Shown: positions 30,044-57,486 of the stretch, in pieces | How positions within the stretch are numbered: the stretch's first letter is position 1 | Layout of the letters: each line of letters begins with the position of its first letter | Assembly (NCBI RefSeq): GCF_000943555.1 | Contig: NZ_JTDV01000019.1 | Span: forward strand, 1-64,000 | Reading direction: 5' to 3' | DNA length: 64,000 bases | Source: Neotamlana nanhaiensis | Lineage (GTDB): Bacteria > Bacteroidota > Bacteroidia > Flavobacteriales > Flavobacteriaceae | Notes under the pieces: generated by a model | What the model saw: the letters and a program-made list of their open reading frames with translations, nothing else | Told to the model about the DNA's origin: nothing | Databases searched by the model: none | Position numbers and translations under genes: made by a program

Positions 30044-31048
30044 TTACAATATAGACTTGGTTTTAACCAAACTTGTTTTTACAATATTGGTTTTTACATC
30101 TTCCTCTTTATTAGTATTAAGCATGCGATTAATTAGCAATTGCGCTGCATTTTCACCAATGGTCTTGGCATGCTGCCTAATAGTTGTTAATTTAGGTAAG
30201 GTATGATTAGAATCGGATTTACTGGCAAAGGCAATTACCGATACATCTTTTGGCACTTTAAGTCCTAAATTTACTGCTGTATTTAAAGCTATTATTCCCG
30301 AAGAACTATCGGCTGCTAAAACTGCATCGATACCTGGGTTTTTCTTAAAAAAAGATTTTATTTTCTTTTGATGATCGTCTTTCTTTTTAATTTTTAAAAC
30401 CAGCGGTTCTTGCTGTTTTTGCTCTAAAATAGCTTTATTGTAACCCCGCTCTCGTAATTTACCAACACTTAAATCGTTAATATTACTTATAAAGGCTATT
30501 TTTTTTCGGTTTTCACTAGTTAATAATTGCGTAGCATTGTAGGTAGCATCAAAATCATCAACTATAACTTTATCACATAACACATCGTGCGCCACCCTAT
30601 CGAACATTACTATTGGCAAACCTTGACTTATGGTTTTTTTAAAGTGTTCAATTTCATTACTTATTTGAGTTTCTTCGGCCACCGATAGAATAAATCCATC
30701 GACACTTCCATTGGCTAAAAGCTGCAAACTTTCCTTTTCCTTATCTAAGGATTCGTTAGATATACAGGTAATAATATTATAACCTTGTTTATTGGCTTCA
30801 CGCTCTATACCAAAAAGCACTTTGGCTAAAAACCTATTTAATATATTAGGAATTATAACACCTATAGTTTTAGTTTTATTATTCTTTAAACTTAAGGCTA
30901 CTTTATTAGGTTTGTAATTATATAATTCGGCAAGTTCCTTTACTCGTCTTACCGTAGTTTCTCCTATTTCTTCACTGTTATTTAAAGCTTTAGAAACTGT
31001 TGAAATTGAAACATTTAACTCTTTAGCCAGTTGTTTGAGTGTAACCAT
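30044..31048 (-). CDS. LacI family transcriptional regulator
   Basis: The 334-residue protein has the LacI helix-turn-helix LKQLAKELNVSISTVSKALN at residues 3-22, the hinge helix segment YKPNKVALSLKNNKT, and a periplasmic-binding-protein-like sensor domain (TIGVIIPNILNRFLAKVLFG, then DGFILSVAE, MFDRVAHD, DAVLAADSSSGIIAL). It would bind a sugar or sugar acid and leave or hold a CG-centred palindrome. It lies just outside the heme module, about 10.5 kb from the first pectin gene. The AATCGATT palindromes at the pectin promoters are the type of site such a protein would use, but that link is inferred. Confidence 0.94.
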   Translation of the reverse strand: MVTLKQLAKELNVSISTVSKALNNSEEIGETTVRRVKELAELYNYKPNKVALSLKNNKTKTIGVIIPNILNRFLAKVLFGIEREANKQGYNIITCISNESLDKEKESLQLLANGSVDGFILSVAEETQISNEIEHFKKTISQGLPIVMFDRVAHDVLCDKVIVDDFDATYNATQLLTSENRKKIAFISNINDLSVGKLRERGYNKAILEQKQQEPLVLKIKKKDDHQKKIKSFFKKNPGIDAVLAADSSSGIIALNTAVNLGLKVPKDVSVIAFASKSDSNHTLPKLTTIRQHAKTIGENAAQLLINRMLNTNKEEDVKTNIVKTSLVKTKSIL

Positions 31049-42929: not shown

Positions 42930-43670
42930 TTAGTCTTTAATGTATTTTTTAATTGATGCCACTTTTTCTTTTAATGAAACAATAGCCAATTTAGCAACCT
43001 CATTAGCTCCTAAGTTTGATAAATGTGTATTATCTTCCTTTCCCTTTTTATAATACGGGTGTTCACCTGGAGCAAAATGCAGATGTAATTTTTTTGAAGC
43101 TTCTTCGCCGTACGAAAGCTCTAAAACTTCGGTTAAATATTGCAAATCAATAAAAGGCACATTATACTCTTGCGCAACCAAGCGTACTTCCAACGGGTAT
43201 TCGCCATGAGTATCAACCAATACGCCGTGTTCGTTAAAATTTCGTCGGGTTATAGATGAAAACAAAACTGGAATAGCACCTTTTTCTCGTGTTTCATTTA
43301 CATATTTAATGAGGTTATGTCTGTAAGTTGTATGCGGATTTGTGTAACGATCGGGCGATTTAAACTTTTGGTCGTTATGCCCAAATTGAATGAACACATA
43401 ATCATCTTTTTTTAATGTTTCTAAAACAGAGTCCCAGCGTCCTTCACCGATAAAACTTTTTGAGCTTCGTCCGTTAACTGCTCTGTTATCGATTACAGCA
43501 TCATTTGTAAAATAATCTTGAAGCACTTGCCCCCAACCATGTTCTGGGTTGTGTTCTGGATTCTTTTTGTTGGCCATGGTAGAATCGCCAATTAAATAAA
43601 TGGTTGTTTTTTGCGCCGAACAACTTAATGTAAACGCCAATGAAATGATAAAAATGAAATGCTTAGTCAT
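42930..43670 (-). CDS. CE12-type rhamnogalacturonan acetylesterase
   Basis: The 246-residue exported SGNH esterase has block I TIYLIGDSTMANK (nucleophile Ser in GDS), block II VNGRSSKSF, block III FIQFGHNDQK (Asn/oxyanion) and block V DNTHLSNLGA (Asp and His). This order and the GDSTMA form fit CE12 enzymes that remove acetyl groups from rhamnogalacturonan or related pectins. A cysteine in the signal (TLSCSAQ) might allow lipid attachment. It overlaps the PL10-CE8 gene by 8 bases, which indicates translational coupling. Confidence 0.9.
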   Translation of the reverse strand: MTKHFIFIISLAFTLSCSAQKTTIYLIGDSTMANKKNPEHNPEHGWGQVLQDYFTNDAVIDNRAVNGRSSKSFIGEGRWDSVLETLKKDDYVFIQFGHNDQKFKSPDRYTNPHTTYRHNLIKYVNETREKGAIPVLFSSITRRNFNEHGVLVDTHGEYPLEVRLVAQEYNVPFIDLQYLTEVLELSYGEEASKKLHLHFAPGEHPYYKKGKEDNTHLSNLGANEVAKLAIVSLKEKVASIKKYIKD

Positions 43671-45669
43671 GTTGATTTAAATTTTCAAAAAATTGATTTC
43701 CTAGTATGTTGTTGATGGTATATTTTTTTGCCTGTTTTTTTGCGAGTTGATGCGACCAGCTAACACGTTCATTTGGTTTAAAACCTATTCCCGTATTGTT
43801 ATACTCGGCATAAAACGAGGTCGATTCTGCTTCCTTATTCTTCCAATTATGCCATCCTACTGGTAAAATATGATTGCCCATATCGCAGTTTATAAAAACG
43901 GTTTTGGCATATTTTCGCCATGGCCGGCCTAAATAAACTTCATTTACACCAACATCAGCTGTAAGTTTACAATTTTTAAACACATAACCAAAAGTTTCAT
44001 TTTTAGCTGTTGATGCTGCGGTGATGTAAGAGTTGGTTTTATTATTTATTACACAATCGTCGAAAAGCACTGTGGCTTCACCAAAAATAAAATCGGTACT
44101 ACCTTCAATAAAACAATTTTTAAAATATTGTTTAAAACCTTCGCCTGCTGTGTAAACCGTATCTTGATAACCTTTTAAGTTACAATTTTCAAAAAAACAA
44201 TTATTCGCATTTACCGATAAAGCTACAGCTTGCCCAACAGGACCTGCAGTATTTTGAATGGTTAAGTTTTTGGCCAGAAAATAGTCACCTTCAATTAAAA
44301 CGGTTGATGTTAAAAAGGTGCTATTTCGCCCTAAATCTATCTTACTAAAATAGTCATCAAACGTAATAATGGTATTTTCTTTACTTTCACCCAAAAAACT
44401 CACATGCGTATTCCATGAAAATACGTGAACTTTTTCGTTGTAAACACCATCTTTAATATTAATAATCACCCTTTGGTACGGAAATGCTTTTGATGCATAA
44501 ATAGCTTCTTGAATGCTCGTATAATCACCGCTTCCGTCTTTGGCCACAGTAACATTATAAGCGTCTTTTACTTTTTTAGAGGGCTTTTCGTAATGTTTTG
44601 CCTTCCATTCTGGAAATTTATCAATTACTTTTTGCGGATTTTGAGTATACCACGCGTAACCGTTTCGGCGTTCGTAACCTATTTCGGCAAGTGTTGCTTT
44701 TTTAATTCCGTCTCTATCGCAAAAAAACGGTGTATTATCATCGAGTTCCATAAAACGCGCCCAAACGGGTGTCGCATCATCATCTTCAACCACTATGGTA
44801 TTTCTCTTTTGTATAGTTTCATCAAATTTTCGCTCCACTTTTAAACCTTCAATTTTCACCTTTTTAAACCAAGACACGGCATGCACAATAGCATTCTTAA
44901 CCGCTTCCGAAGGATTTTCAATAGACATTAATAACCAAACGATTTCAGCAGATTCGGCGCCGCTTAACGATGGCAATTCGTAACTTCTTGCTTTTGCAGG
45001 TGCAAGTGTTTTTACATCGTGTTGTGCACACCAAGCGGTAAGCGCACCATTTTGCTTGTATTGGGTTTTAACAATGCATTCAATACCTTTATTAAAAGCT
45101 TCTTCTGCACGTTTTACATCAGCATCAGAAACTGGAACAGCATAATAATCGGTTTTATTTTTCACCTGTTGCAACAGTTTCAAAATGTTAACCATGGAAT
45201 TATCATTATAAGTAATATGACTGTAATACCCTTTTCGTAACGGATAAAACTGTGGCCAACCACCATTTTCATATTGGGCTTCAAAAATGTAATGCAAACC
45301 TTTTATCCACGCCTCTTTATAAGTTGCATTTTTTGTGGCTCGATACATTTTTGATAAAAACAAGAGTTCTTGAATGGTGGCGCCATTATCGGTTGTAACA
45401 TCATCGGTGCTTTGCTTTAAGGCTTTTAACTTTTCCTTTTCCTCTGGAGAAAGCAGCTTTTGCATTTGCGTGTTTTTAGGCCAACCGCCAATATCTCTTT
45501 GATATAATAACACATTATCGGCGATTGTTTGGGCTTCATCAGATGCAAACCATTCCTTGTCCTGTTTATTAATAATTCGTCTCCAAGATGGATCATGAAC
45601 TTGCCCGTGAGACGTATTAAAAAAAATAAGGATAAAGCAACAAAGTAAAATTCGGTGATAAATAAACAT
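43663..45669 (-). CDS. Two-domain pectinase: PL10 pectate lyase fused to CE8 pectin methylesterase
   Basis: The 668-residue secreted protein has a signal peptide (ILLCCFILIFFNTSHGQ). Its N-terminal domain (about 25-350) is a PL10-type alpha-barrel lyase: RDIGGWPKNTQM, TTDNGATIQELLFL, YENGGWPQFYP, TYNDNSMVN and EDDDATPVWARFMEL. The C-terminal domain (about 372-655) is a CE8 beta-helix esterase with KGYQDTVYTAG, GSTDFIFGEA (catalytic Asp pair) and YLGRPWRKYA (Arg). Together they remove methyl esters and then cleave the demethylated homogalacturonan. It is first in the leftward operon, behind the GTAATCGATTAC site. Confidence 0.92.
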   Translation of the reverse strand: MFIYHRILLCCFILIFFNTSHGQVHDPSWRRIINKQDKEWFASDEAQTIADNVLLYQRDIGGWPKNTQMQKLLSPEEKEKLKALKQSTDDVTTDNGATIQELLFLSKMYRATKNATYKEAWIKGLHYIFEAQYENGGWPQFYPLRKGYYSHITYNDNSMVNILKLLQQVKNKTDYYAVPVSDADVKRAEEAFNKGIECIVKTQYKQNGALTAWCAQHDVKTLAPAKARSYELPSLSGAESAEIVWLLMSIENPSEAVKNAIVHAVSWFKKVKIEGLKVERKFDETIQKRNTIVVEDDDATPVWARFMELDDNTPFFCDRDGIKKATLAEIGYERRNGYAWYTQNPQKVIDKFPEWKAKHYEKPSKKVKDAYNVTVAKDGSGDYTSIQEAIYASKAFPYQRVIINIKDGVYNEKVHVFSWNTHVSFLGESKENTIITFDDYFSKIDLGRNSTFLTSTVLIEGDYFLAKNLTIQNTAGPVGQAVALSVNANNCFFENCNLKGYQDTVYTAGEGFKQYFKNCFIEGSTDFIFGEATVLFDDCVINNKTNSYITAASTAKNETFGYVFKNCKLTADVGVNEVYLGRPWRKYAKTVFINCDMGNHILPVGWHNWKNKEAESTSFYAEYNNTGIGFKPNERVSWSHQLAKKQAKKYTINNILGNQFFENLNQHD

Positions 45670-45700: not shown

Positions 45701-45719
45701 GTAATCGATTACAAATATA
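45701..45719 (-). promoter_or_regulatory. Promoter -7 box and AATCGATT operator for the leftward pectin operon
   Basis: On the minus strand TATATTTG (45719-45712), a perfect TAnnTTTG box, runs straight into the perfect palindrome GTAATCGATTAC (45712-45701). The operator would cover the transcription start, 32 bases before the ATG at 45669. This is a typical repressor position. Confidence 0.75.
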
Positions 45720-45818
45720 GCTCATCTTTATAGCTTTATGAAGCTAATTAATAGATTACTTTATGGTATTAACAAAAAAACAGCGTCAAAATTTATCATC
45801 TAAACTAACTTTATTTCG

Positions 45819-45862
45819 TTTGATTATTAAATAAAAACTTATATATTTGTGCAATCGATTAC
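45819..45862 (+). promoter_or_regulatory. Promoter and AATCGATT operator for the susCD operon
   Basis: TTTG at 45819-45822, then exactly 19 bases, then TATATTTG at 45842-45849: a full match to the Bacteroidota promoter form. The operator GCAATCGATTAC (45851-45862) begins 2 bases later and overlaps the expected start of transcription. The leader to the ATG at 45919 is about 60 bases. Confidence 0.82.
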
Positions 45863-45918
45863 ATTTATTATTCAATATGAATGTAATAACTAAACAAGTT
45901 AACAACTAAACTAATTTT

Positions 45919-48900
45919 ATGACAAACTATTTAAATGGTTTGTTTCTCTATGCTTTCAAAAGAGGAACAAAAAGTCTTTTCTGTAAAAAAAGTTTTTCAG
46001 TTTTAGTTTTGGGTGCATTTTTGCTAAGTAGCATTTCATTGTTTGCTCAAAATAAGACCATAAAAGGATTGGTAACCGATGCCGATACGGGAGAACCGCT
46101 ATTAGGTGTAACCGTGATTGAAAAAGGCACTTCTAACGGTGCCGCTACAGATTTTGACGGAAACTATTCTCTTTCCGTTTCAAGCGAAAACGCTACTCTA
46201 GTTTTCTCTTACATTGGTTACAAAACTTTAGAATTAAATGCTGCTGGTAAATCTACGGTAAATGCTAATTTAGCTCCAGATGTTGCTGCACTTAACGAAG
46301 TTGTGGTTATTGGATATGGAACAGCTAAAAAATCGGACTTAACAGGTTCGGTTGTTGCTATTTCAGGTTCAGACTTAAAAGAACAACCTATACCAAACGT
46401 TGCCGAGGCACTTACAGGTCGTTTAGCAGGTGTACAAATTAACTCAACTGAAGGTTCTCCCGATGCCGATATTAGCATTCGAATTCGTGGTGGTGGGTCT
46501 ATCACGCAAAACAGTTCGCCATTAGTTATTGTTGATGGTTTCCCTGTAAACAGTATTAGTGACGTATCGTCTTCAGATATTGAAAATATTACTGTTTTAA
46601 AAGACGCCTCTTCAACCGCGATTTACGGTTCTCGTGGCGCAAACGGTGTTGTTATTATCACAACAAAAAGTGGTAAAGAAGGTAAAATTTCAGCAAACTT
46701 TAACATGTTTTACGGTGTTAAAAAAATTGCTAATACTATCGATGTTTTAAGTCCAGAAGATTTTGTTAAATGGCAATACGAATATGCACTTTTAGATAAT
46801 CCAGAAGAAATGGAATCTTACGAAAGTCTTTTTGGTTTATGGCAAGATTACGATCAATACCTTGGTCAAAAAGGCACCAACTGGCAAAAACAAATTTACG
46901 GACGAATGGGTGAAGTTGAAAGTCGCGATTTATCTGTGAGAGGTGGTACCGAAAAAATTAACTTCAACCTTAATTACGCACTTTACGATGAAAAAGCAAT
47001 AATGGTTGGTTCTAACTTTAAGCGTAATAACTTTTCTGTAGGTTTAAAAAGCAAAGTAAACGACAAAGTGGATTTATCGTTCACTTTACGCTATTCTGAA
47101 ACCGAAGTTAACGGTGGTGGTGCTAACGAACAAAATGAAGTATCATCAGCCGATGCTCGTTTAAGACACAGTGTTGGGTACTCGCCTATTCCAATTGCAG
47201 GTCTTACCACAGCAAATACCGACGAAGCTTTATCGAGTTATTTAGTAAACCCTTTTGTAGCAGTAGATGATAACCAACGTAAGCGTTTAAGAAAAAACTT
47301 CAATATGGTAGGTAGCTTTTCTTGGAAAATATTTAAAAACCTACAATACAAAATGGATTTAGGTTTAGATAACCGTAACGATTTAGATTATCGTTTTTAT
47401 GGCCGTTCTACCTACTACTCAGGCAACGTCCCTTCTGGAGACAATCAAGGTGCTCCTGCGTTGGTTAACAAAGACGAAAAGCGTGTGCGTTTTAGAACTG
47501 CCAACACTTTAAATTACGATTTTAAGGATATTTTAAATAACGAAAATCACGATTTAAAACTTTTAGTTGGTCAAGAATCTATTTTTACTAAAAACAACGA
47601 AGTAACTTCTGCATTACACGGTTTCCCAAAATTATTCGATTTTGAAACAGCAAGAACATTAACCTCGCAGGCAACTCCGTTTTTAGTAGACGATTTTTAC
47701 AGTCCTAATGATAAACTATTATCATTCTTTGGGCGTGTAAACTACAACTTAAAAGATCGCTATTTATTAACAGCTACGTACAGAGCCGATGGTTCTAGCA
47801 AGTTTTTAGGCAACAACCGTTGGGGCTATTTCCCTTCTGCTGCCTTAGCTTGGAAAATTTCTGAAGAAGAATTTTTAAGCAATGCTAACTGGTTAAACAA
47901 CTTAAAATTAAGAGTTAGTTACGGTCAATCGGGTAACAACAACATCCCAGCAGGACAAACTATTCAAAACTATCAATCGACAACCACTTCTCAAATAAAT
48001 ACTTTTAGTAATTATTGGAGACCTTCTAGTATTTTAGCAAACCCAGATTTAAAATGGGAAACTACAATTACACAAAACATTGGTATAGATTTCGATATAT
48101 TTAAAGGACGTGTTAGCGGTTCGTTTGAAGCTTACAAAAACATTACTAAAGACTTACTTATCCGCTTCCCAATACCAGGTTCTGGTTACGACGACCAATA
48201 TAGAAACTTAGGTGAGGTACAAAATGAAGGTCTCGAAGCCTCTTTAAACTTATCTATTTTAGAAAAACCAAACTATTCTTTAAGCTTAGCACTTAACGGA
48301 AGTTATAACAAAAATGAAATAACCGCTTTAGGAGGTTTAGAAGATTTTAGAACCAATACTAATTGGGCATCTTCTCAAATTGGTGTTGATTATTTGGTAA
48401 CTGTAGGACAACCTCTAGGTGTAATGTATGGATTTAGAAACGACGGACGTTACGAAGTATCAGACTTCGATTACGATGCAACCTCACAAGAATACACATT
48501 AAAATCAGGCTTAGTAGATAACGAATGGTTAGGCGGTGCACAACCAGGTATGATGAAACTTAAAGACCTAAACAACGATGGTATTATTGATGCCGATGAC
48601 CAAGAAATCATTGGAAATGCAAACCCAGATTTTACTGGTGGTATCGTACTGAACGCTACAGCCTATGGTTTCGATTTTTCTGCAGCCTTTAGTTACAGCA
48701 TAGGTAGTGAAGTATATAACGCGAACAAAATTGAGTTTACAACAGCAAACGAAAACAATCAATATAGGAATTTAAGTACTATTATGAGTGATGGTAACCG
48801 TTGGACTAACCTAGATCCGGCTACAGGCCAATTAGTAACCGATCCTATACAATTAGATGCTTTAAACGCCAATACAACCATGTGGTCCCCCTATATGTCT

Positions 48901-49179
48901 GATTACGTTTTTAGTGATTGGGCTGTTGAAGACGGATCGTTTTTAAGATTAAACACCTTAACATTAGGTTACACCATTCCTGAAGAGTTTACAGAGATGC
49001 TACACATTTCTAATTTAAGATTTTATGCCACCGCTAGCAACGTTTTCATCGTTACTAATTACTCAGGCTTAGACCCTGAAGTTTCAACAAGACGAAACAC
49101 ACCACTTACACCGGGTGTAGATTACTCGCCTTATCCTAGAAGTAGACAAATCGTTTTCGGTTTAAATCTTAACTTTTAA
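45919..49179 (+). CDS. SusC/RagA-family TonB-linked outer-membrane transporter
   Basis: The 1086-residue protein has a long signal region (core VLVLGAFLLSSISLFAQ, to about residue 44), a CarboxypepD_reg-like domain (GLVTDADTGEPLLGVTVIEK), the SusC hallmark VVVIGYGTAKKSDLTGSV, a plug domain (GRLAGVQINSTEGSPDADIS, RIRGGGSI, VLKDASSTAIYGSRGANGVV) and a large barrel ending in RQIVFGLNLNF. It imports oligosaccharides in a complex with the SusD-like lipoprotein encoded 20 bases downstream. In this locus the cargo should be pectin oligomers. Confidence 0.95.
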   Translation: MTNYLNGLFLYAFKRGTKSLFCKKSFSVLVLGAFLLSSISLFAQNKTIKGLVTDADTGEPLLGVTVIEKGTSNGAATDFDGNYSLSVSSENATLVFSYIGYKTLELNAAGKSTVNANLAPDVAALNEVVVIGYGTAKKSDLTGSVVAISGSDLKEQPIPNVAEALTGRLAGVQINSTEGSPDADISIRIRGGGSITQNSSPLVIVDGFPVNSISDVSSSDIENITVLKDASSTAIYGSRGANGVVIITTKSGKEGKISANFNMFYGVKKIANTIDVLSPEDFVKWQYEYALLDNPEEMESYESLFGLWQDYDQYLGQKGTNWQKQIYGRMGEVESRDLSVRGGTEKINFNLNYALYDEKAIMVGSNFKRNNFSVGLKSKVNDKVDLSFTLRYSETEVNGGGANEQNEVSSADARLRHSVGYSPIPIAGLTTANTDEALSSYLVNPFVAVDDNQRKRLRKNFNMVGSFSWKIFKNLQYKMDLGLDNRNDLDYRFYGRSTYYSGNVPSGDNQGAPALVNKDEKRVRFRTANTLNYDFKDILNNENHDLKLLVGQESIFTKNNEVTSALHGFPKLFDFETARTLTSQATPFLVDDFYSPNDKLLSFFGRVNYNLKDRYLLTATYRADGSSKFLGNNRWGYFPSAALAWKISEEEFLSNANWLNNLKLRVSYGQSGNNNIPAGQTIQNYQSTTTSQINTFSNYWRPSSILANPDLKWETTITQNIGIDFDIFKGRVSGSFEAYKNITKDLLIRFPIPGSGYDDQYRNLGEVQNEGLEASLNLSILEKPNYSLSLALNGSYNKNEITALGGLEDFRTNTNWASSQIGVDYLVTVGQPLGVMYGFRNDGRYEVSDFDYDATSQEYTLKSGLVDNEWLGGAQPGMMKLKDLNNDGIIDADDQEIIGNANPDFTGGIVLNATAYGFDFSAAFSYSIGSEVYNANKIEFTTANENNQYRNLSTIMSDGNRWTNLDPATGQLVTDPIQLDALNANTTMWSPYMSDYVFSDWAVEDGSFLRLNTLTLGYTIPEEFTEMLHISNLRFYATASNVFIVTNYSGLDPEVSTRRNTPLTPGVDYSPYPRSRQIVFGLNLNF

Positions 49180-49199
49180 TCAAAAAATTCTAAAGAAAA

Positions 49200-51059
49200 A
49201 TGAAAAACTTAATAAAAACATTAACGCTTAGCATGGTTGCTATCGCTACTTTCAATTCTTGCCAAGAATTTGAAGACGATTACTTAGAAGGACCTGCTAT
49301 TTCAACCATTGCCGATAACGTAATATTTGCAAACCCAGATTTAGCTCAAGGTGCTGTAGATGGTGTAATCGAAATTATTGCACATACCAACTCGTACCGT
49401 GGTCGTCATATTCCTTTTTATGGTTTTAATACCGATGTAGAATGGAACTATAACTCTTCATCTGTAGGTAACTCTTCTGGTGAATTAGTGATTTATGATG
49501 CCAAGCCTAATAACGGGCAAATGGACAGAGACAATAGTTCTTGGAACGAAATTTACATTGGGATAGAGCGTGCAAACAAGTGTATTGAAGGAATTCGTAC
49601 ATTCGGCACCGAAGAACCAGGTACCGAACTTGGTCGCTTACTTGGTGTAGCCTTAACCTATCGTGCCGTATTTTATAGCGACTTAATTAAAGCTTGGGGT
49701 GATGTTCCAGCACGTTTCGAGCCTATAAATTCTGAAACTTTATACATAGCAAAAACAAGTCGCGATACCATTTACAAACAAATTATTGCCGATTTAAAAA
49801 TAGCTTCAGACCTTGTACCTTGGCCAAACGAAGATAGCAAAACTACAACCGTAGAACGCATCAACAAAGCATTCGTAAAAGGACTTCGTGCTCGCATTGC
49901 ATTGTCTGCTTGTGGCTACCAACAATACCCTAACGATGGGGTTCGCAGAAGTAACGACCCAGATCTTTCTGTTCAAAAAATGTATAAAATTGCTTTAGAT
50001 GAATGTCGCGATGTAATAAACAGCGGAACCGTAGGATTAGAACCTACCTTTGAAGGTGTTTGGAGAAAATTAAACGAAGAAAATATAATTGTAGGAGGCG
50101 AATCGTTATGGGAAATGCCATTTTCTGATGGTCGTGGGCGTGTTAATTTCTCGTTTGCTGTTCGTCATCGTATGGTCGATCAAAATACAGGACAAGCTCG
50201 AGGTGGAATTGCAGGTCCATTACCGACTGTTTTTTACGATTTTGATGAAGATGATACACGAAGAGACATTACAGCTGTTCCATATGAATGGAGTACTCAA
50301 ATTGGCGAAGTACCGTCACCAGACCCAACAAAAGATAGCAACGTTGCCTTTACGCAACAAACTTTAGCCGGTTTAAACAGATGGTATTTTGGAAAATACC
50401 GCTACGAGTGGATGAACAGGTATGTAACCTCTGATAATGATGACGGTATTAACAGACTTTACATGCGCTATGCCGAAATACTGTTAATGGCTGCCGAAGC
50501 TGCTAATGAACTAGAAGGTCCTGCTGCTGGTGCTGTGTACTTAAAAGAATTAAGACGACGCGCTTTCCCTGCTGAACTTCATGCCGAAAAAGTAGACGAT
50601 TATGTAAATGCACTATCTAGTAAACAAGCCATGTTTAACGCTATTGTAGATGAACATAAATTTGAATTTACAGGAGAAATGGAACGTAAACAAGCCTTAA
50701 TTCGTTGGAATTTACTTGGAGAAAAACTAAGAGAAGCCAAAGAAAAAATGCGCAACTTACGCGACCGCACTGGCGAGTATGCCGATGTCCCAACAACACT
50801 ATATTATCGTTATTTAGACAACGATTACACCGAACTTGATGAAGATGATGAAACCATAGTAATTTATGGATTAAACCGTGGTGAAACTGTAAACCCTGGA
50901 GGCGACTATATTGCACAAGACTGGACTAACCTTCCTGAAAATGAAATTAATTCGCTTTTCCTTGAAGGTGTAGATCCAGATACCAGACAATTTTGGCCTA
51001 TTTGGCAAACTTTTATTGCTGCTAGTAATGGAAAATTAGTTAACGATTACGGTTACTAG
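49200..51059 (+). CDS. SusD/RagB-family glycan-binding lipoprotein
   Basis: The 619-residue lipoprotein (signal TLSMVAIATFNSC, lipid Cys about residue 21) has the SusD N-terminal TPR-like region (WNEIYIGIERANKCIEGIR, LGVALTYRAVFYSDLIKAWG) and the C-terminal RagB segment with RLYMRYAEILLMAAEAANE and MERKQALIRWNLL. It closes over the SusC barrel as a lid and holds the glycan. An insert-rich C-terminal part makes it longer than many SusD proteins (about 500-550). Confidence 0.94.
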   Translation: MKNLIKTLTLSMVAIATFNSCQEFEDDYLEGPAISTIADNVIFANPDLAQGAVDGVIEIIAHTNSYRGRHIPFYGFNTDVEWNYNSSSVGNSSGELVIYDAKPNNGQMDRDNSSWNEIYIGIERANKCIEGIRTFGTEEPGTELGRLLGVALTYRAVFYSDLIKAWGDVPARFEPINSETLYIAKTSRDTIYKQIIADLKIASDLVPWPNEDSKTTTVERINKAFVKGLRARIALSACGYQQYPNDGVRRSNDPDLSVQKMYKIALDECRDVINSGTVGLEPTFEGVWRKLNEENIIVGGESLWEMPFSDGRGRVNFSFAVRHRMVDQNTGQARGGIAGPLPTVFYDFDEDDTRRDITAVPYEWSTQIGEVPSPDPTKDSNVAFTQQTLAGLNRWYFGKYRYEWMNRYVTSDNDDGINRLYMRYAEILLMAAEAANELEGPAAGAVYLKELRRRAFPAELHAEKVDDYVNALSSKQAMFNAIVDEHKFEFTGEMERKQALIRWNLLGEKLREAKEKMRNLRDRTGEYADVPTTLYYRYLDNDYTELDEDDETIVIYGLNRGETVNPGGDYIAQDWTNLPENEINSLFLEGVDPDTRQFWPIWQTFIAASNGKLVNDYGY

Positions 51060-51086
51060 AATTAATAATTTAAAAGTATTACAATT

Positions 51087-52631
51087 ATGAAGACAATATA
51101 TATATTCAAAATAATACCAGTACTGCTTTTAGCCATTTTGGTTACAGGTTGTGGGTATAACGAAGATGTAATAGAAGAACTTTCTATTAGTCGTGAATTT
51201 GCACCAACTGATTTATCAGTTTTTATAAGAAATCAAACTAATGTTGAATTAAATTGGGTTACCGATGATAACATCGATTATTATGTCGCTGAGTTTAGCG
51301 CAGACGACCCAACGTTTTCAACCATCTACCTTTCGCAACAAATTGATGCTAGCGAATTACCTATTCAAATTCGTTTAGAAGGCGAAACGCTTTATGCTAT
51401 TCGTATTAAAGCTGTTAGTAATCGCGGATTAAATGATTCGTCTTGGGTTATTGCAGAAGCAGAAACGTTAACCGAGCAAATTATGTTACCTTCTCAACCA
51501 GGTGACATTCAAGCATTACAAGCAACTTTACGTTGGGAAGCGGGGTTAAATGTTACGCATTTCATTTTACAGCCTGGTGATGTTCGTTACGATCTTTCAG
51601 CTCAAGAAATTGCAGCTGGTGTAGCAACGATACCAGATTTAATGGCTGATACTGATTACCAAGGTACCCTTTACAACAATGCTAAAATTAGAGGTACTTC
51701 TACTTTTAAAACAGGAATCGATATTGGAGACAACACCTTAGTGTTACCAAGCGACGACTTATTCCAAATGATTGCCGATGCTGAGTCAGGAGATATCTTA
51801 CTACTAGAGCAAGGTGACTATACCTCACAAGTAGGTAGTGTTACTTTAGATAAATCAATAACAATTCAAGGGTTAAGAACCGATTTTAAACCACTTTTAA
51901 AAATAGGATTTTCCATTGCTGCTGGAGCAGAAGATGTTAGTTTAATAGATTTAGATATTGCAGGAGATTCAGCTTCAGAACTTATTGATATGGTAAGTTA
52001 TTCCGATGTAGGTAACTTCAACTCTATGCTAATAAGTGGTTGTAACATCCACGATTTCGATCGTTCTTTCGTAAGAGGTAGTACTAGTGGTTCTGTTCTT
52101 CAAACTTTAACCATAGAAAACAGTATAGTTAGTAATGTGTTAACTGCCGCTGGTGACTTTATTGACTTTAGAAGTTCGGATGTATTAAACGTTAACATTA
52201 CAACAAGTACTTTTAACAACTGTGCACCTGGTCGTGATTTCTTAAGACTTGATGCTTCGGGTGTTTCAAACGGAAATAGCAACTGTAACATTTTAATTGA
52301 TAGTTGTACCTTATATGGTTGTTCTAATTCTGATAGCCGTAGAATTTTATATGTTCGTTTTGTTACTAACGACGTTACCGTTAGAAATACGTTAATTGCT
52401 GAAACGGATTCTGAAGGTTATGCCGACCGTTCTGGTATTGATGAAACGCCAACTTTCAGTAATAACAACTACTTTAATGCTCCTGGTTTTTCTGACTCTA
52501 ATCAATATATATTCGACGGTTCAGGATCAGATTTAGATCCAGGTTTTGCCAATGCCGCTAATGGTGATTTTACTATAACTAACCAAACTATTATCGACAA
52601 TCAAATTGGTGACCCTCGTTGGAGACAATAA
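51087..52631 (+). CDS. DUF4957/DUF5123-type surface lipoprotein, probable glycan-binding protein
   Basis: The 514-residue lipoprotein (signal IPVLLLAILVTGC) has fibronectin III-like domains at about 40-215 (NVELNWVTDDNIDYYVAEFS) and a right-handed parallel beta-helix in the second half (SITIQGLRTDFKPLLKIGFS, then repeated short strands), ending with the DUF5123-type close GDFTITNQTIIDNQIGDPRW. Third genes after susCD in pectin loci often encode such proteins, which act as surface pectin-binding proteins. No catalytic lyase motif is obvious. It ends the first transcription unit before a strong terminator. Confidence 0.85.
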   Translation: MKTIYIFKIIPVLLLAILVTGCGYNEDVIEELSISREFAPTDLSVFIRNQTNVELNWVTDDNIDYYVAEFSADDPTFSTIYLSQQIDASELPIQIRLEGETLYAIRIKAVSNRGLNDSSWVIAEAETLTEQIMLPSQPGDIQALQATLRWEAGLNVTHFILQPGDVRYDLSAQEIAAGVATIPDLMADTDYQGTLYNNAKIRGTSTFKTGIDIGDNTLVLPSDDLFQMIADAESGDILLLEQGDYTSQVGSVTLDKSITIQGLRTDFKPLLKIGFSIAAGAEDVSLIDLDIAGDSASELIDMVSYSDVGNFNSMLISGCNIHDFDRSFVRGSTSGSVLQTLTIENSIVSNVLTAAGDFIDFRSSDVLNVNITTSTFNNCAPGRDFLRLDASGVSNGNSNCNILIDSCTLYGCSNSDSRRILYVRFVTNDVTVRNTLIAETDSEGYADRSGIDETPTFSNNNYFNAPGFSDSNQYIFDGSGSDLDPGFANAANGDFTITNQTIIDNQIGDPRWRQ

Positions 52632-52670
52632 AAAGTATTACCACTAAATTTCATATATTTTAATTAAAGT

Positions 52671-52711
52671 AAAGAGGTACACAATATGTTAACGTGTACC
52701 TCTTTTTTTAT
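52671..52711 (+). terminator. Terminator after the susC-susD-DUF5123 unit
   Basis: The arms AGAGGTACAC (52673-52682) and GTGTACCTCT (52694-52703) form a perfect 10-bp stem followed by a run of T. It lies 40 bases after the DUF5123 stop and 18 before the next start codon, so it would reduce read-through into the lyase gene. Confidence 0.88.
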
Positions 52712-52728
52712 AAATTAATAGTTTCATT

Positions 52729-54969
52729 ATGACAACTTTTTCTAAAACCATTTTAATAACAGTAATACTATTTGTTTGCAGCCATAGCTACGGGCAAAAT
52801 TTAGCTTTCCCAACGGCGGAGGGTTTTGGTAAATATGCTTCGGGTGGTCGTGGCGGATTGGTGTATACCGTAACTAACCTAAACGATGATGGTGAAGGTA
52901 GTTTTAGAAAAGGTATTTTAAAAAAAGGCCCTCGAACTATTGTTTTTTCAGTAGCTGGAACTATTGAACTAAAATCTAAACTCGATGTTAACCGCGGTGA
53001 TTTAACCATCTTGGGGCAAACTGCACCTGGAGATGGCATAACGCTAAAAAACTATCCGTTTACTATAAAAGCAGATAATGTTATTGTACGCTATTTTCGA
53101 TTTAGAATGGGAGACGAAGCTAATATTGAAGGAGACGCTTTAGGCTGTCGCGATGCCCAAAACGTTATTATCGACCACTGTTCTATTAGCTGGGGAACAG
53201 ACGAAAACGCTTCATTTTACAACAACAAAAATTTCACTTTGCAATGGTGCATCATTTCCGAGGCATTAAATCGTTCCGTACATAGTAAAGGTGCCCACGG
53301 TTACGGTGGTATTTGGGGAGGCGTTAATGTGTCGTTTCACCATAACCTTTTAGCGTCAAACAATAGTAGAAACCCCCGTTTTAGTGGTTCGAAAACTACC
53401 GAAAATTCAGAAAACGAATTTGTCGATTTTAGAAATAACGTCATTTACAACTGGGGCGAAAACAATATTTATGGTGGCGAAAAAGGCACTTATAATCTGG
53501 TTAATAATTACTTCAAATCAGGACCCGCAACAACGTCTTCAAAATTAGATAGAATTGTAAGTCCGAATAAACCATACGGTAAATTTTATGTAAATGGTAA
53601 TTATGTAGACGGCTACCCAAACATCACTACAAACAATTGGAATGGCGGTGTGCAATGCGACAACCCATTAGAAACAAAACTAAATGATCCTATTTTTATT
53701 GAAGGCAATATTGAAACTTCAGATTCTAAAACCGCATACAAAATGGTTTTAAAACAAGCTGGCGCTAGTGTTGCTCGCGATAAAGTTGATATTAGAATTA
53801 TTCATGCCGTTGAAGAAGGTTCAGCTAGCATAAAAAATGGCATCATCGATTCGCAAAAAGATGTTGGCGGATGGCCAGAATTAAAATCTTCCGAAGCAAA
53901 AACAGATACCGATAACGATGGTATTCCCGATGATTGGGAAACACAAAATAACCTCAACCCTAGCGCCAACGACAGTAACTTAAATAGTTTAAACGCCGAT
54001 TACACAAATATTGAATTGTATGCAAACAGTTTAACTAAAGTACTTCCGCAAGAAAAAGAAATTAACGGCGAAAAGTTTCATTTTATAATTGATGCTGAAG
54101 GGAATGGCGACTTCACTACTGTTCAAGAAGCTATTAACGCCGTACCAGATTTTAGAAAAAACGAAACCAAGTTCTACATAAAGAATGGCGTTTACAAAGA
54201 GAAATTAGTACTTCCAACCTCAAAAACCAATATCACTTTTGTTGGAGAAGATAAATTAAAAACCATCATTACCCACGACGATTACGCAAAAAAACTAAAT
54301 AGTTTTGGGGAAGAAATGGGCACCACAGGCTCAACCTCGTTTTTTATTTTTGGTGATAATTTTAAAGCAAAAAACATCACTTTCGAAAATAGTGCGGGTA
54401 CCGTTGGTCAAGCCGTGGCGGTGCGTGTAGATGGGGACAAGGCTGTGTTTGTTAATTGTCGTTTTTTAGGCAACCAAGACACCTTGTATTTACATGGTAA
54501 CGATAGCCGCCAATATTATAAAGATTGTTATATTGAGGGTACGGTAGATTTTATCTTCGGATGGTCCACAGGCTATTTCGAAAACTGCGAAATTTACTGT
54601 AAAAACAAAGGCTACGTTACGGCAGCATCAACCAACGAAAACACCAAATTTGGCTTTGTATTTAAAGATTGTAAAATTACAGGAAGTGCCGAAGAGCATA
54701 GCTTTTACCTTGGCAGACCTTGGCGTGATTATGCGAAAACTGTTTTTATAAACTGCGACATGGGCAACTTAATAAAACCTGAAGGTTGGCACAATTGGGG
54801 AAAACCTCATGCAGAAGTAACCACCTTTTACGCCGAATATAAATCTACCGGTGCAGGCGCTTCTAAAAAACGAGTAAAGTGGGCAAAAAAAATAACCAAA
54901 AAAGATTTAGAAAACTTTAGCATTAAAAATGTTTTAGGAGGCGATGACGATTGGAATTCTGAGTTCTAA
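52729..54969 (+). CDS. Two-domain pectinase: PL1 pectate lyase fused to CE8 pectin methylesterase
   Basis: The 746-residue secreted protein has a signal peptide (ILITVILFVCSHSYG). The N-terminal domain (about 22-350) is a PL1 beta-helix: PTAEGFGKYASGGRGG, NVIIDHCSISWGTDENAS for the calcium site, and NNSRNPRFSG bearing the catalytic arginine. A short EF-hand-like linker DTDNDGIPDDWE follows (about 398-410). The C-terminal CE8 domain (about 445-735) has LGNQDTLYLHG, TVDFIFGWST and YLGRPWRDYA. It has the same two-step logic as the PL10-CE8 protein, built with an unrelated lyase fold. Confidence 0.92.
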   Translation: MTTFSKTILITVILFVCSHSYGQNLAFPTAEGFGKYASGGRGGLVYTVTNLNDDGEGSFRKGILKKGPRTIVFSVAGTIELKSKLDVNRGDLTILGQTAPGDGITLKNYPFTIKADNVIVRYFRFRMGDEANIEGDALGCRDAQNVIIDHCSISWGTDENASFYNNKNFTLQWCIISEALNRSVHSKGAHGYGGIWGGVNVSFHHNLLASNNSRNPRFSGSKTTENSENEFVDFRNNVIYNWGENNIYGGEKGTYNLVNNYFKSGPATTSSKLDRIVSPNKPYGKFYVNGNYVDGYPNITTNNWNGGVQCDNPLETKLNDPIFIEGNIETSDSKTAYKMVLKQAGASVARDKVDIRIIHAVEEGSASIKNGIIDSQKDVGGWPELKSSEAKTDTDNDGIPDDWETQNNLNPSANDSNLNSLNADYTNIELYANSLTKVLPQEKEINGEKFHFIIDAEGNGDFTTVQEAINAVPDFRKNETKFYIKNGVYKEKLVLPTSKTNITFVGEDKLKTIITHDDYAKKLNSFGEEMGTTGSTSFFIFGDNFKAKNITFENSAGTVGQAVAVRVDGDKAVFVNCRFLGNQDTLYLHGNDSRQYYKDCYIEGTVDFIFGWSTGYFENCEIYCKNKGYVTAASTNENTKFGFVFKDCKITGSAEEHSFYLGRPWRDYAKTVFINCDMGNLIKPEGWHNWGKPHAEVTTFYAEYKSTGAGASKKRVKWAKKITKKDLENFSIKNVLGGDDDWNSEF

Positions 54970-55014
54970 CTTAAATTCATTCTTAAAAAATTAAACAAAC
55001 TACAACTTCTTTTG

Positions 55015-55035
55015 TATTTTAGTACAATCGATTAC
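55015..55035 (+). promoter_or_regulatory. Promoter -7-like box and AATCGATT operator for the GH28-GH43 unit
   Basis: TATTTTAG at 55015-55022 is a near match to TAnnTTTG, and ACAATCGATTAC (55024-55035) begins 2 bases later, the same spacing as at the susC promoter. No -33 TTTG was found. It lies 14 bases before the GH28 start codon, so the leader would be very short or the site may block elongation. Confidence 0.65.
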
Positions 55036-55048
55036 ACTAAATAAAATC

Positions 55049-56473
55049 ATGAAAAAACTATTTCACACTAAGTACCTGTTTCTGTTTATTTTAAGCAGTC
55101 TTATTTTGGCATCTTGTAAAAACAAAAAAAAGGAAACGCAAACACCTGTTGACGTATTTGCTAAAGCTGATTCTATCATTGCATCTATAAAACCTTTAAC
55201 TTTTCCCGACAAAACTTTTAATATATTAGACTTTGGAGCTGTGGCAGATGGATCTACATTAAACACCGACGCCATTAAAAAAGCAATAGATTCTTGTAAT
55301 GCTTCTGGCGGTGGTAAAGTGCTAATTCCTGCAGGCAACTTTTTAACAGGCCCAATTCATTTAAAAAGCAATGTAAATTTACATTTAGAAACTGGCGCAA
55401 ATGTTTTATTTACAACAGACAAATCGGCTTACCTTCCTGTGGTTCACACCTCTTACGAAGCCGTAGAATTAATGAATTATTCACCGCTAATCTATGCTTA
55501 CAAACAAAACAATTTTGCGGTGACTGGCAAAGGTACTTTTAACGGTCAAGCCGATAAAGAAAACTGGTGGCCTTGGTGTGGTGCTGAGCGTTATGGACAT
55601 TTAGATGGTGAACCACAACAAAAAGACGAACACAATTTACCACGCTTAAGAACCATGAACGAAAATGCAACGCCTGTTGCAGAACGTATTTTTGGTGAAG
55701 GACACCAATTGCGTCCATTGTTTTTCCAACCTTTCGAGTGCGATAACGTGCTGGTTGAAGGTGTTACTTTTACTAATGCACCGTTTTGGGTAATGCATCC
55801 TATAAAATGTAATTATGTGAGAGTTGATGGTGTTACCGTTAGCAGTCATGGACCAAATAATGATGGTTGCGATCCCGAATATTCAAAATACGTGCACATT
55901 AACAATTGTACTTTCGATACTGGTGATGATTGTATTGCCATTAAATCTGGAAGAAACGATGAAGGTAGACGCGTTAACATTCCAAGTGAAAACATTGTAG
56001 TAGAAAATTGCTATATGAAAGATGGCCACGGTGGCGTTGTAATGGGAAGCGAGCTTTCTGCGGGTATTAGAAACGTTTATGTTAGAAATTGTAATATGGA
56101 TAGTCCAAACCTAGATCGTGCCATTCGTATAAAAACAAACACGCTTAGAGGTGGTTTTGTTGAAAACGTTTTTGTAAAAAACATAAAAGTTGGTCAAGTA
56201 AAAGAGGCTGTTTTAAAAATAAACACGCATTATGGTATTTATGCGAATCAAGAGGGCAACTACATTCCTGAAATAAAAAATATTCATTTAGAAAATGTAA
56301 CCGTAGAAAACAGTGGTAAATATGCTATTTTAATAAAAGGACGCGAGCAAAACCCAGTAAAAAACGTAACTTTAACCAATGTTACTATTAAAGGTGCAAA
56401 AACACCTTTGTCTGTGGAACACTCAGATCCAATAGTATTTAAAAACACAACCATTAACGGAAAACAATATTAA
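55049..56473 (+). CDS. GH28 family lipoprotein, polygalacturonase-like
   Basis: The 474-residue lipoprotein (lipid Cys23 in LILASCKNKK) is a GH28 beta-helix with all four active-site motifs visible: NNDGCDPEYS, DTGDDCIAIKSG, DGHGGVVMGSE and RAIRIKTN. It should hydrolyse alpha-1,4 galacturonic linkages in homogalacturonan or at rhamnogalacturonan ends, at the cell surface or in the periplasm. It leads the second rightward unit behind its own AATCGATT operator. The KNKK stretch after the cysteine recurs in the next two lipoproteins. Confidence 0.93.
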   Translation: MKKLFHTKYLFLFILSSLILASCKNKKKETQTPVDVFAKADSIIASIKPLTFPDKTFNILDFGAVADGSTLNTDAIKKAIDSCNASGGGKVLIPAGNFLTGPIHLKSNVNLHLETGANVLFTTDKSAYLPVVHTSYEAVELMNYSPLIYAYKQNNFAVTGKGTFNGQADKENWWPWCGAERYGHLDGEPQQKDEHNLPRLRTMNENATPVAERIFGEGHQLRPLFFQPFECDNVLVEGVTFTNAPFWVMHPIKCNYVRVDGVTVSSHGPNNDGCDPEYSKYVHINNCTFDTGDDCIAIKSGRNDEGRRVNIPSENIVVENCYMKDGHGGVVMGSELSAGIRNVYVRNCNMDSPNLDRAIRIKTNTLRGGFVENVFVKNIKVGQVKEAVLKINTHYGIYANQEGNYIPEIKNIHLENVTVENSGKYAILIKGREQNPVKNVTLTNVTIKGAKTPLSVEHSDPIVFKNTTINGKQY

Positions 56474-56478
56474 AATTC

Positions 56479-57486
56479 ATGAAAAAATTAGCCATTCTAT
56501 CTTGTGCTGCCTTAGCACTTTTTGCGTGTAAAAACAAAGCATCAAACAACCCCGAAACTGCTCCTGTTGCAGAAGTTGAAAGCAGTAAACAAATTACTTA
56601 CGCAGAACTTTCTAAAGCTGTAGGTGGCGAATGGGCAGATGGCCCTAGAGGTCACAAAGAATATTTAAACGGTACTTTTCAAAACATTGATTCTTTAACC
56701 GTTCCTGAAGAGCATACCGACCACTCTTGGTACTTACGCTACGAAGGTCCAGGTTGGGAAAATGCACAAGTAGGTTATCGTTTGTATTTAGATTGGCGAA
56801 ATGCTATCGATATTTTTGGTAAAAAAGTAGATACTTTGGTTTTACCACAAGTAGGACAAAATGGTTTCGATTCTTACCACGATTCGTCGCCATGGGGAAT
56901 GGATATTTTAAAAGCAGGAAAATCAATGGGTATTGGTGGCTACGGTCGTGTGGTTGCAGATACCGTTGTACATTTTCAAAACGTAAAAAGTACGTTTGCT
57001 AGTGTAGAAAATGCTTCAGCAGTATCATCAGTAAATATTGAATATACCGGTTGGGAATCGGGTGAAGACACAATCGACTTAACATCAAAACTATCTATTT
57101 TTCCTTCCGATAGATTTACAAAAGCAGAATTAACACCATCAAAAGCGATAACAGGCTTATGTACAGGTATTGTTAACCACGATGTAGCGCTTCATAAAAA
57201 AGTAGGTTCTAAATGGGCTTATATCGCGACTTATGGCGTGCAAACCTTAAACCATCCTGCCGATAAATTAGGAATGGCTTTATTTTATAAAGTTGATGAA
57301 GTTGAAACTCAAAAATTAGGTAAAGACGACCACTTAGTTATTTTTAAACCTACTACAGAAACAGTTACGTATTACTTTTTAGCAGCTTGGGAAAAAGAAC
57401 TTAAAGGTATTACCAATGAAGCTGATTTTTTAAGCGACATAAACAGCAAACTAAGTACTTTAGAAGCTAATGGTGCTTTAGAATAA
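56479..57486 (+). CDS. DUF4861 family lipoprotein
   Basis: The 335-residue lipoprotein (lipid Cys17 in ALALFACKNK) matches DUF4861 with VGGEWADGPRGHKEYLNGTF, HSWYLRYEGPGWENAQVGYR, LDWRNAIDIFGKK and SPWGMDILKAGKSMGIGGYG. The family is found almost only in pectin and alginate-like polysaccharide loci, next to GH105 or GH88 genes. An enzymatic or accessory role on unsaturated uronides is likely but not proven. It lies 5 bases after the GH28 gene. Confidence 0.88.
   Translation: MKKLAILSCAALALFACKNKASNNPETAPVAEVESSKQITYAELSKAVGGEWADGPRGHKEYLNGTFQNIDSLTVPEEHTDHSWYLRYEGPGWENAQVGYRLYLDWRNAIDIFGKKVDTLVLPQVGQNGFDSYHDSSPWGMDILKAGKSMGIGGYGRVVADTVVHFQNVKSTFASVENASAVSSVNIEYTGWESGEDTIDLTSKLSIFPSDRFTKAELTPSKAITGLCTGIVNHDVALHKKVGSKWAYIATYGVQTLNHPADKLGMALFYKVDEVETQKLGKDDHLVIFKPTTETVTYYFLAAWEKELKGITNEADFLSDINSKLSTLEANGALE

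Follow-up and report, generated by a model that had tools for sequence, protein, structure and literature searches.

A conserved LacI-type operator at pectin-locus promoters of Neotamlana nanhaiensis and its probable regulator, LacI-81057

The pectin locus and its three predicted operators

The window analysed here, a stretch of 64,000 nucleotides on contig C12 of the 4.02-Mb genome of N. nanhaiensis, carries a pectin locus whose gene content by Pfam is that proposed in the first-pass annotation (Pec_lyase-Pectinesterase, GDSL, GH28, SusC/SusD and GH43). The minus strand encodes a GH28 (41557..42921), a GDSL esterase (42930..43670; the CE12 label is that of the first-pass annotation) and a pectate lyase (Pec_lyase, PL10)-pectinesterase (CE8) fusion (43663..45669). 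The plus strand encodes a SusC/RagA TonB-linked receptor (45919..49179), a SusD (49200..51059) followed in the same orientation by a DUF4957/DUF5123 protein (51087..52631), and a CE8 pectinesterase (52729..54969). Further along this strand lie genes for a GH28 (55049..56473), a DUF4861 protein (56479..57486), a Glyco_hydro_88 protein that we take to be of the GH88/GH105 type (57615..58859), a GH43 (58890..60521) and another GH28 (60514..62205). No histidine kinase, the sensor of a hybrid two-component system (HTCS), was found among the 35 proteins scanned between C12:30044 and 88 kb; these comprise all 20 window ORFs of at least 150 aa from 30044 on, 9/9 proteins of locus L037 and 6/9 of locus L038, where the remaining three are a protein covered under L037, another that overlaps it and the kdgA fragment.

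Three predicted operators, annotated as unstranded features, were found exactly where they had been proposed: GTAATCGATTAC, a perfect palindrome, in the leftward PL10-CE8 promoter (45701..45712); GCAATCGATTAC in the rightward susCD promoter (45851..45862); and ACAATCGATTAC, the most deviant of the three, ahead of the GH28 gene at 55049 (55024..55035). With the -7 box placed at -12 to -5 (PMC9723704), the leftward promoter has TATATTTG on the minus strand (45712..45719, register -13, predicted +1 at about 45707), the susC promoter has TATATTTG on the plus strand (45842..45849, register -15, predicted +1 at about 45854) and the GH28 unit has TATTTTAG, a 5/6 match, on the plus strand (55015..55022, predicted +1 at about 55027). 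The operators overlap the predicted transcription starts, as had been claimed. The spacing proposed earlier, directly at the box or two bases after it, is nearly right: the leftward box shares the first G of its operator, and a single base separates box and 12-mer at 45851 and 55024.

In the window the 10-mer AATCGATTAC gives four directional matches, all of them at the three sites (45701 reads on both strands), compared with a mean of 0.25 and a maximum of 2 in 100 dinucleotide shuffles. The claim that the window holds no other site of this form stands for the exact 10-mer and fails for near matches, namely GTAATCTATTAC at 3445 and GTTATCGATTAC at 43485 (43485..43496, unstranded). The latter, with one mismatch and within the GDSL-esterase gene, was taken as a decoy. 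It scores above 55024 on the operator alone (19.3 vs 16.3) and below it once the -7 box is included (7.4 vs 19.5). With a matrix trained on 44 sites from 8 other genomes, the organism's five promoter sites ranked highest on the contig, 43485 alone exceeding 55024; among 51 oriented sites, 55024 is the sole one with an A at -6. All three sites are genuine, exceed chance expectation and form part of a regulon that is larger and conserved.

The operators at 45701 and 45851 are 150 bp apart, and pairs left of susC elsewhere are spaced by 247 (G052), 248 (G177), 177 (G100) and 185 bp (G114). These spacings vary and by arithmetic have no common helical phase, so DNA looping was rejected as a required feature.

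A regulon conserved within the family

The longer motif GYAATCGATTAC occurs at 10 places in the genome, 3 inside genes and 7 intergenic. The intergenic sites precede pectin lyase/esterase genes, either of two susCD units (one with an arabinofuranosidase), uxaC or a LacI gene. They are 45701 (before PL10-CE8), 45851 (before susCD), C12:73916 (pectinesterase and Pel9A-like), C12:80975 (the promoter of the LacI-81057 gene itself), C10:2030 (uxaC), C1:293454 (susCD and arabinofuranosidase) and C1:88303 (LamG and Pec_lyase); 55024 is an eighth, weaker site. One operator does define a pectin regulon, as the first-pass annotation had it, but this regulon is larger than the lyase-esterase, susCD and GH28-GH43 units listed there: it also takes in uxaC (galacturonate catabolism), two more pectin enzyme units, the susCD unit with its arabinofuranosidase and the gene of the LacI itself. 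In this genome hexuronate catabolism joins the regulon by site position only, through the site before uxaC; uxaC and uxaBA may form one operon across the contig gap. Across the genome the core 10-mer AATCGATTAC is hardly enriched (36 matches vs 26 for the reversed control), and a search allowing one mismatch gave 218 matches vs 200 for its control. Neither the core alone nor the one-mismatch search is discriminating, and the full 12-13-mer is needed.

Among 299 genomes of the family, 42 encode an 81057-type LacI and 257 do not. The pattern TGYAATCGATTAC has 232 directional matches in the former and 51 in the latter, whereas the reversed pattern has 11 and 54, respectively. Matches also occur in 39 of the genomes without this LacI, 10 of which show two or more directional ones, in some cases one palindrome read twice; conversely, G017 has the LacI and lacks TGYAATCGATTAC. 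The protein is present in 37 of the 236 genera sampled. Putative autoregulation is conserved too: 92 of 102 distinct ortholog upstreams carry a site with at most one mismatch and 95 with at most two, and 7 have none within three. By comparison, 3 of 2180 shuffled upstreams reach one mismatch or fewer, and of eight other palindromes searched in 109 upstreams only one reached one mismatch, in 2 upstreams. In 80 named loci (1.62 Mb), 211 sites with at most one mismatch were found, 2 of them coding, against an average of 2.4 in mononucleotide shuffles. All these counts are not independent, because the sequences are related.

By a hand count in eight relatives, the site lies ahead of a uxa/kdg gene run in all 8, of the LacI gene in 6, of susC and of the pectinesterase in 5 each, of PL10-CE8 units in 4 and of the GH28 of 55049 in 3. 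The first gene of the uxa/kdg run is KduI by Pfam in the three relatives tested. In N. nanhaiensis, kduI lies with its own LacI gene rather than heading the putative uxa operon.

The sites might instead have arisen by chance or simply reflect the AT-rich sequence of promoters, given that the bare 8-mer AATCGATT is ordinary in the window (5 matches, a number reached by 8 of 100 shuffles) and that the 10-mer is only slightly enriched in the genome. The conservation, phylogenetic profile and clustering are, however, far above their controls; the window shuffles together with the upstream, profile, geometry and 80-locus controls speak against a chance origin and make this explanation vanishingly improbable.

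Which LacI-family protein reads the operator

That a LacI-family protein binds these sites was proposed from the outset and, judged from sequence comparison, remains likely. The regulator is very probably LacI-81057, encoded on the plus strand at C12:81057-82088, 17 kb past the window end and beside uxaA/uxaB/TRAP genes, and not the LacI at 30044. The protein combines a LacI helix-turn-helix (PF00356, E 1.2e-12) with a Peripla_BP_1 domain (E 8.7e-37); NCBIfam gives it no name, no equivalog scoring above its cut-off (best RbsR, 221.5 vs 382). The recognition helix of the 81057 type is mostly ITAATVSRAL.

The first-pass annotation had put forward the LacI-family protein encoded at 30044..31048 (minus strand), which lies inside the window, 14-25 kb from the sites. 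Its orthologs (at least 73% identity, 45/299 genomes) do not track the operator: the 33 genomes that have one without an 81057-type LacI average 0.12 matches, whereas the 12 that have both average 6.33. A site is found within one mismatch in 0/19 of the ortholog upstreams and within two in 1/19. Three congeners keep orthologs that are about 92% identical, and yet GYAATCGATTAC occurs in them at 0, 1 and 0 places; the best relatives of LacI-81057 in these congeners are C9-type proteins. Moreover, the genes scanned beside it, on a single side, encode HmuY-like proteins and TonB receptors and no pectin functions, and its recognition helix is VSISTVSKAL, as against mostly ITAATVSRAL in the 81057 type. 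Upstream of 30044 itself, none of the palindromes tested was found (12-bp in 250 bp; 16-bp CG- or GC-centred in 500 bp). The profile, the ortholog upstreams and the congeners thus speak against this protein, and it is highly improbable that it binds the sites.

A sibling LacI could also bind the sites, or a part of them, by itself or together with LacI-81057. The C9 LacI, located beside kduI in the same genome, belongs to the same family and has an operator, ACAATCGATTGT, with the same AATCGATT core; the outer bases differ (AC..GT in place of the GT..AC of the 81057 type), as does the helix, typically IDSSTVSRAL (also INSS-, IDAS- and INPS-). One half of the 55024 site is of the C9 type. The C7 paralog is 53% identical to LacI-81057, its best relatives elsewhere are 81057 orthologs and the phylogenetic profile does not separate it. 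On the other hand, the 25 genomes with a C9 ortholog and no 81057-type LacI average 0.16 matches, 0/29 C9-type upstreams come within two mismatches of GTAATCGATTAC, C7's own 250-bp upstream has no such palindrome and its recognition helix is changed (STATV vs TAATV). A role for a sibling is therefore improbable, and LacI-81057 remains the preferred regulator.

A rather unlikely, more elaborate possibility is that two sibling LacI proteins share the AATCGATT core and are separated only by the outer pairs, GT..AC with ITAATVSRAL for galacturonate/pectin and AC..GT with IDSSTVSRAL for kduI, the hybrid at 55024 being read by both. If so, the oligogalacturonate-hydrolase unit would open only in the presence of both galacturonate and unsaturated-uronate signals. 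Whether or not 55024 is read by both, GT..AC and AC..GT with their matching recognition-helix changes offer a natural specificity pair in which to study the avoidance of cross-talk between LacI paralogs.

Proposed repression by occlusion and relation to known systems

A -7 box with at least 5/6 bases lies at -18 to -12 from the operator centre in 42/51 oriented sites; the control window at -45 to -39 is also positive in 21/51, which may be due to the -33 region falling in that interval. Box and operator are adjacent, in most cases in one of two registers that put the predicted +1 inside the operator, from which we infer repression by occlusion. In the absence of pectin products, a LacI-81057 dimer would occupy (T)GYAATCGATTAC(A); this site touches the -7 box or has one base in common with it and includes the predicted start, so that RNA polymerase could not initiate. 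The sensor domain would then bind a cytoplasmic metabolite of the galacturonate pathway (galacturonate, tagaturonate or KDG are candidates) and the repressor would leave. Genes for pectin breakdown (lyases and esterases), for import by SusCD, for oligosaccharide hydrolysis and for catabolism (uxaC...TRAP-uxaB-uxaA) would be derepressed jointly with that of the repressor. We consider it highly likely that LacI-81057 represses these promoters in this manner until such a metabolite releases it. Some LacI-family proteins activate, and LacI-81057 could in principle do so; activation is nevertheless very unlikely here, since at 42/51 oriented sites the -7 box adjoins the operator and the predicted start falls within it, so that a dimer bound there should stand in the way of the polymerase.

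The regulon has the LacI-type arrangement of a CG-centred palindrome at the regulator's own and target promoters. This type is already known, and the pectin regulon described here is a further member. The LacI-family regulators UxaR, UxuR, KdgR and UxmR were predicted in Bacteroides by comparative genomics (PMC3878776, PMC4052901); they share with LacI-81057 the family, the phylum and a link to hexuronate (galacturonate, glucuronate, mannuronate) and KDG catabolism. Pectin loci of Bacteroides are attributed there to hybrid two-component systems, while the regulons for monosaccharides consist mainly of cytoplasmic functions; some, that of KdgR among them, include a limited number of genes for periplasmic or extracellular proteins (PMC3878776, PMC4052901). 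Here, in contrast, one LacI would cover lyases, esterases, SusCD, catabolism and itself, a regulon content that sets it apart, and the operator is a single CG-centred palindrome rather than the direct repeat with spacer of Bacteroides-type HTCS operators.

Also flavobacterial is the pectin PUL of Gramella flava JLT2011, where the accessible passages list uxaA/B/C, kdgK, eda, kduI/D, PL9, TRAP and a gene annotated as the hexuronate repressor 'exuR' (PMC5306329). On pectin its uxa genes and an endopolygalacturonase are up, but the susCD of the locus is not induced and the TRAP genes are down, which counts against a common switch; these passages describe no operator or regulon (PMC5306329). The excerpted list of E. 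coli GalR-type operators, which are 16-bp dyads, includes a site, ATCAAATCGATTACAC, that contains AATCGATTAC, but these serve galactose genes in another organism (PMC5110547). A full-text literature search for AATCGATTAC returned nothing on this system, as judged by titles and the start of abstracts. No description of the operator was found in the literature searched, mostly without subscription papers, and we do not claim its absence from print.

For the flavobacteria, which are degraders of plant and algal polysaccharides, the regulon provides a concrete candidate pectin switch, with one regulator, one operator and one promoter geometry; for the pectin loci of Bacteroides, by contrast, control of the HTCS kind is reported.

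Operator sites in the pectin locus and across the genome

The three sites that the first-pass annotation had placed at pectin-locus promoters (45701, 45851 and 55024) are all present, and Pfam confirmed the claimed gene content: a Pec_lyase-Pectinesterase fusion, a GDSL esterase and GH28 leftward; SusC, SusD, DUF4957/DUF5123 and Pectinesterase rightward; and, after the latter, GH28, DUF4861, Glyco_hydro_88, GH43 and GH28. The core AATCGATTAC has four directional matches in the 64-kb window, confined to these sites, against a mean of 0.25 and a maximum of 2 in dinucleotide-preserving shuffles (n=100); the 8-mer AATCGATT by itself is unremarkable there (5 matches, equalled in 8/100 shuffles). 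The claim that the window holds no other site of this form stands for AATCGATTAC, but near matches occur at 43485 (GTTATCGATTAC, within the GDSL-esterase gene) and 3445 (GTAATCTATTAC).

Across the whole assembly (4,020,819 bases in 37 contigs; C12, whose bases 1-64000 are the window, has 88,419 bases), AATCGATTAC is scarcely enriched, with 36 directional matches versus 26 for the same pattern reversed. The full site GYAATCGATTAC is specific (10 places; 16 directional matches versus 3 in the reversed control); the stricter TGYAATCGATTAC has 9 versus 0. Seven of the 10 GYAATCGATTAC places are intergenic. Besides 45701 and 45851, they precede genes for a pectinesterase carrying a type IX secretion tail and for a Pel9A-like protein (C12:73916), a LacI-family gene (C12:80975), a leftward uxaC gene (C10:2030), a susC-susD pair with an arabinofuranosidase (C1:293454-293465), and a LamG protein followed by Pec_lyase (C1:88303; intergenic given an ATG start for LamG, a TTG start giving overlap with the site's edge). 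With 55024 (ACAATCGATTAC) added, promoter sites number eight; the idea that one operator defines a pectin regulon was right, but the regulon was drawn too small. At the arabinofuranosidase unit, the operator stands between this unit and an adjoining divergent NrtR/AraR-type gene (C1:293701), and double control of pectin side-chain arabinan is possible.

The three intragenic places are C6:57941, C10:233089 (a MoxR-type ATPase gene) and C1:469355-469366, within a GH28 coding sequence. The last, a perfect 12-mer that we read as coding for Val-Ile-Asp-Tyr close to the N-terminal Pect-lyase motif, is a trap for motif counting. On contig C2 (377,790 bases), every listed AATCGATTAC match repeats exactly 188,895 bases on, half of the contig, which looks doubled as an assembly artefact. 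An ECF sigma factor/FecR anti-sigma pair (C12:65668-67544; L037:3669-5545) adjoins the second susC-susD of the pectin locus; no AATCGATT-type site was among those listed near this pair of sus genes, which is probably controlled differently from the first.

The candidate regulator and its conservation

Six LacI-HTH proteins are encoded in the genome. The favoured regulator (C12:81057-82088, plus strand; hereafter 81057 LacI) lies 17 kb to the right of the window and has GCAATCGATTAC in its promoter. Genes convergent with it encode tagaturonate reductase (UxaB), an altronate/galactarate dehydratase-family protein assigned to UxaA by its context, and a DctMQP TRAP transporter. C12 ends within a gene read as kdgA, and C10 starts within one read as kdgK (both named from sequence and gene order alone), with uxaC and the C10:2030 site coming next. 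Since the counterparts of these genes neighbour one another in most of eight relatives' regions, we infer that C12 and C10 probably adjoin and that C10:2030 probably drives the catabolic operon.

Of 299 family genomes, 42 encode a relative of 81057 LacI with an E value of 1e-100 or below. These 42 contain 232 directional matches to TGYAATCGATTAC versus 51 in the other 257 (reversed control, 11 and 54), in a profile that ignores phylogeny and in which one palindrome may count twice; at least one match is found in 41/42 versus 39/257 genomes. We examined 109 LacI upstreams (29 from family genomes and 80 kept of 204 found), 102 of them distinct. A perfect GTAATCGATTAC lies within 350 bases of the start in 60/102, with one mismatch in 32, two in 3 and nothing within three in 7; these sequences are related, many from Flavobacterium, so the trials are not independent. 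At most one mismatch was reached by 3 of 2180 shuffled upstreams, and of eight other palindromes tested on the 109, one alone got to one mismatch, in two upstreams. The central ATCGAT was not required in this shuffle and palindrome test; its invariance is by construction in the 102-upstream tally, the eight-relative survey, the 51-site tally and the 80-locus count.

In eight relatives picked for having site clusters (G052, G100, G114, G130, G162, G175, G177, G221), our own count places a site before the uxa/kdg run in 8/8, within 350 bases before the LacI gene in 6/8, before the susC ortholog and before the pectinesterase of 74060 in 5/8 each, before PL10-CE8 units in 4/8 (preceded by a short ORF in three), and before the GH28 of 55049 in 3/8. 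Where the gene opening the uxa run was checked with Pfam (three relatives), it is KduI; in G221 it is uxaC, as in N. nanhaiensis. Eighty named loci (1,624,488 bases) hold 211 sites at one mismatch or fewer, versus 2.4 per mononucleotide-shuffled set; 2 are coding and 8 have no ORF start within 400 bases. The genes found most often downstream are homologs of the 55049 GH28 and the LacI gene, a site between divergent genes being counted for both. Because the named carriers include one member of another class (Portibacter lacus, Saprospiria), the LacI/operator pair extends beyond the family or has moved.

The LacI encoded at 30044, inside the window, had been proposed as the regulator. This is very probably wrong: its orthologs (at least 73% identity, 45/299 genomes) do not bring sites, with a mean of 0.12 matches in the 33 genomes lacking an 81057-type LacI and 6.33 in the 12 that have both. 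None of 19 ortholog upstreams comes within one mismatch of the site and 1/19 within two, and about 92% identical copies occur in three congeners where GYAATCGATTAC stands at 0, 1 and 0 places. A sibling on C9 (C9:36572-39360, L043) is transcribed divergently from kduI and from a KduD-type short-chain dehydrogenase gene. Its ortholog upstreams carry ACAATCGATTGT, exactly in 21/29 and within two mismatches in 24/29, and 0/29 come within two mismatches of GTAATCGATTAC; the two operators have only the core in common. Genomes with a C9 ortholog but without an 81057-type LacI average 0.16 matches (n=25). The recognition helices change in step, mostly ITAATVSRAL in the 81057 type versus typically IDSSTVSRAL in the C9 type, and the C9 protein is a putative second uronate-linked LacI with a sister operator code. 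A paralog 53% identical to 81057 LacI (C7:135699-136718, L045), neighboured by genes for an FGGY kinase and a GntR regulator, is not separable from it by phylogenetic profile: elsewhere, the proteins closest to the paralog are the 81057 orthologs themselves. The paralog's own 250-bp upstream contains no such palindrome. Two GAAAACGTTTTC palindromes precede another LacI gene (C36:9088-9225, L033) and are kept in the congener G002; GAAAACGTTTTC is a candidate for a different operator type within the genome.

Promoter geometry and predicted mechanism

We oriented 51 distinct intergenic sites, 44 of them from relatives and 7 from the own genome (without C1:88303), using the closest ORF start no more than 350 bases away, and left out coding sites and those without a start in range. 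In 42/51, a TAnnTTTG-like box matching at least 5/6 bases is located between -18 and -12 relative to the centre of the palindrome. By offset, it is found in 32/51 at -15 and 21/51 at -13, versus a rate of 2.6% at each offset from -50 to -25; the two counts share sites, as TATATTTGTG qualifies in either register. The best register is -15 for 28 sites and -13 for 7, with 4 tied between these, 1 tied with -19, 3 elsewhere and 8 boxless. A control window of equal width (-45 to -39) has a box in 21/51, above background, perhaps due to the -33 region lying there; TTTG precedes the start of the box by 23 bases in 11/40.

A matrix built from the 44 sites of the eight relatives, own genome left out, was run over all 88,419 bases of C12. 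Operator-only best-strand scores were 24.3 at both 73916 and 45851, 22.1 at 45701, 21.4 at 80975, 19.3 at 43485, which is an intragenic decoy, 16.3 at 55024, and then 15.7 at 76085, within the pectinesterase gene. With the -7 box added, the five promoter sites reach at least 19.5 and the next place 13.1; this fixed-gap matrix, lacking the second register, scores 45701 and 80975 highest on the wrong strand (right strand, 19.6 and 14.7).

In Flavobacterium psychrophilum, the box extends from -12 to -5 (PMC9723704). Applied to the two registers, this placement puts the predicted +1 within the operator, three or one base left of its centre. A repressor bound over this predicted start should block initiation, and the uxa linkage suggests that the inducer would be a cytoplasmic intermediate of the galacturonate pathway.

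Comparison with known systems

In Bacteroides, the LacI-family UxaR, UxuR and KdgR serve hexuronates (PMC4052901; PMC3878776), whereas control of the pectin loci is attributed to HTCS regulators, whose motifs are direct repeats (PMC3878776). At the locus described here, no histidine kinase was found among 35 proteins scanned from C12:30044 to 88 kb. Gramella flava possesses a comparable pectin locus that includes an annotated exuR gene (PMC5306329); on pectin its uxa genes and endopolygalacturonase rise, the susCD of the same locus is not raised and TRAP genes fall. Given this behaviour, derepression alone may not be enough for the susCD and TRAP branches. No prior report of the operator was found within the limited reach of the literature searched. 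Judged from sequence, a LacI-family uronate repressor regulon is well supported and would be of an already known type; two aspects merit testing, namely that a single repressor acts along the entire pectin pathway and that two LacI operators form a sister-code pair, of which the 55024 site would be a hybrid.
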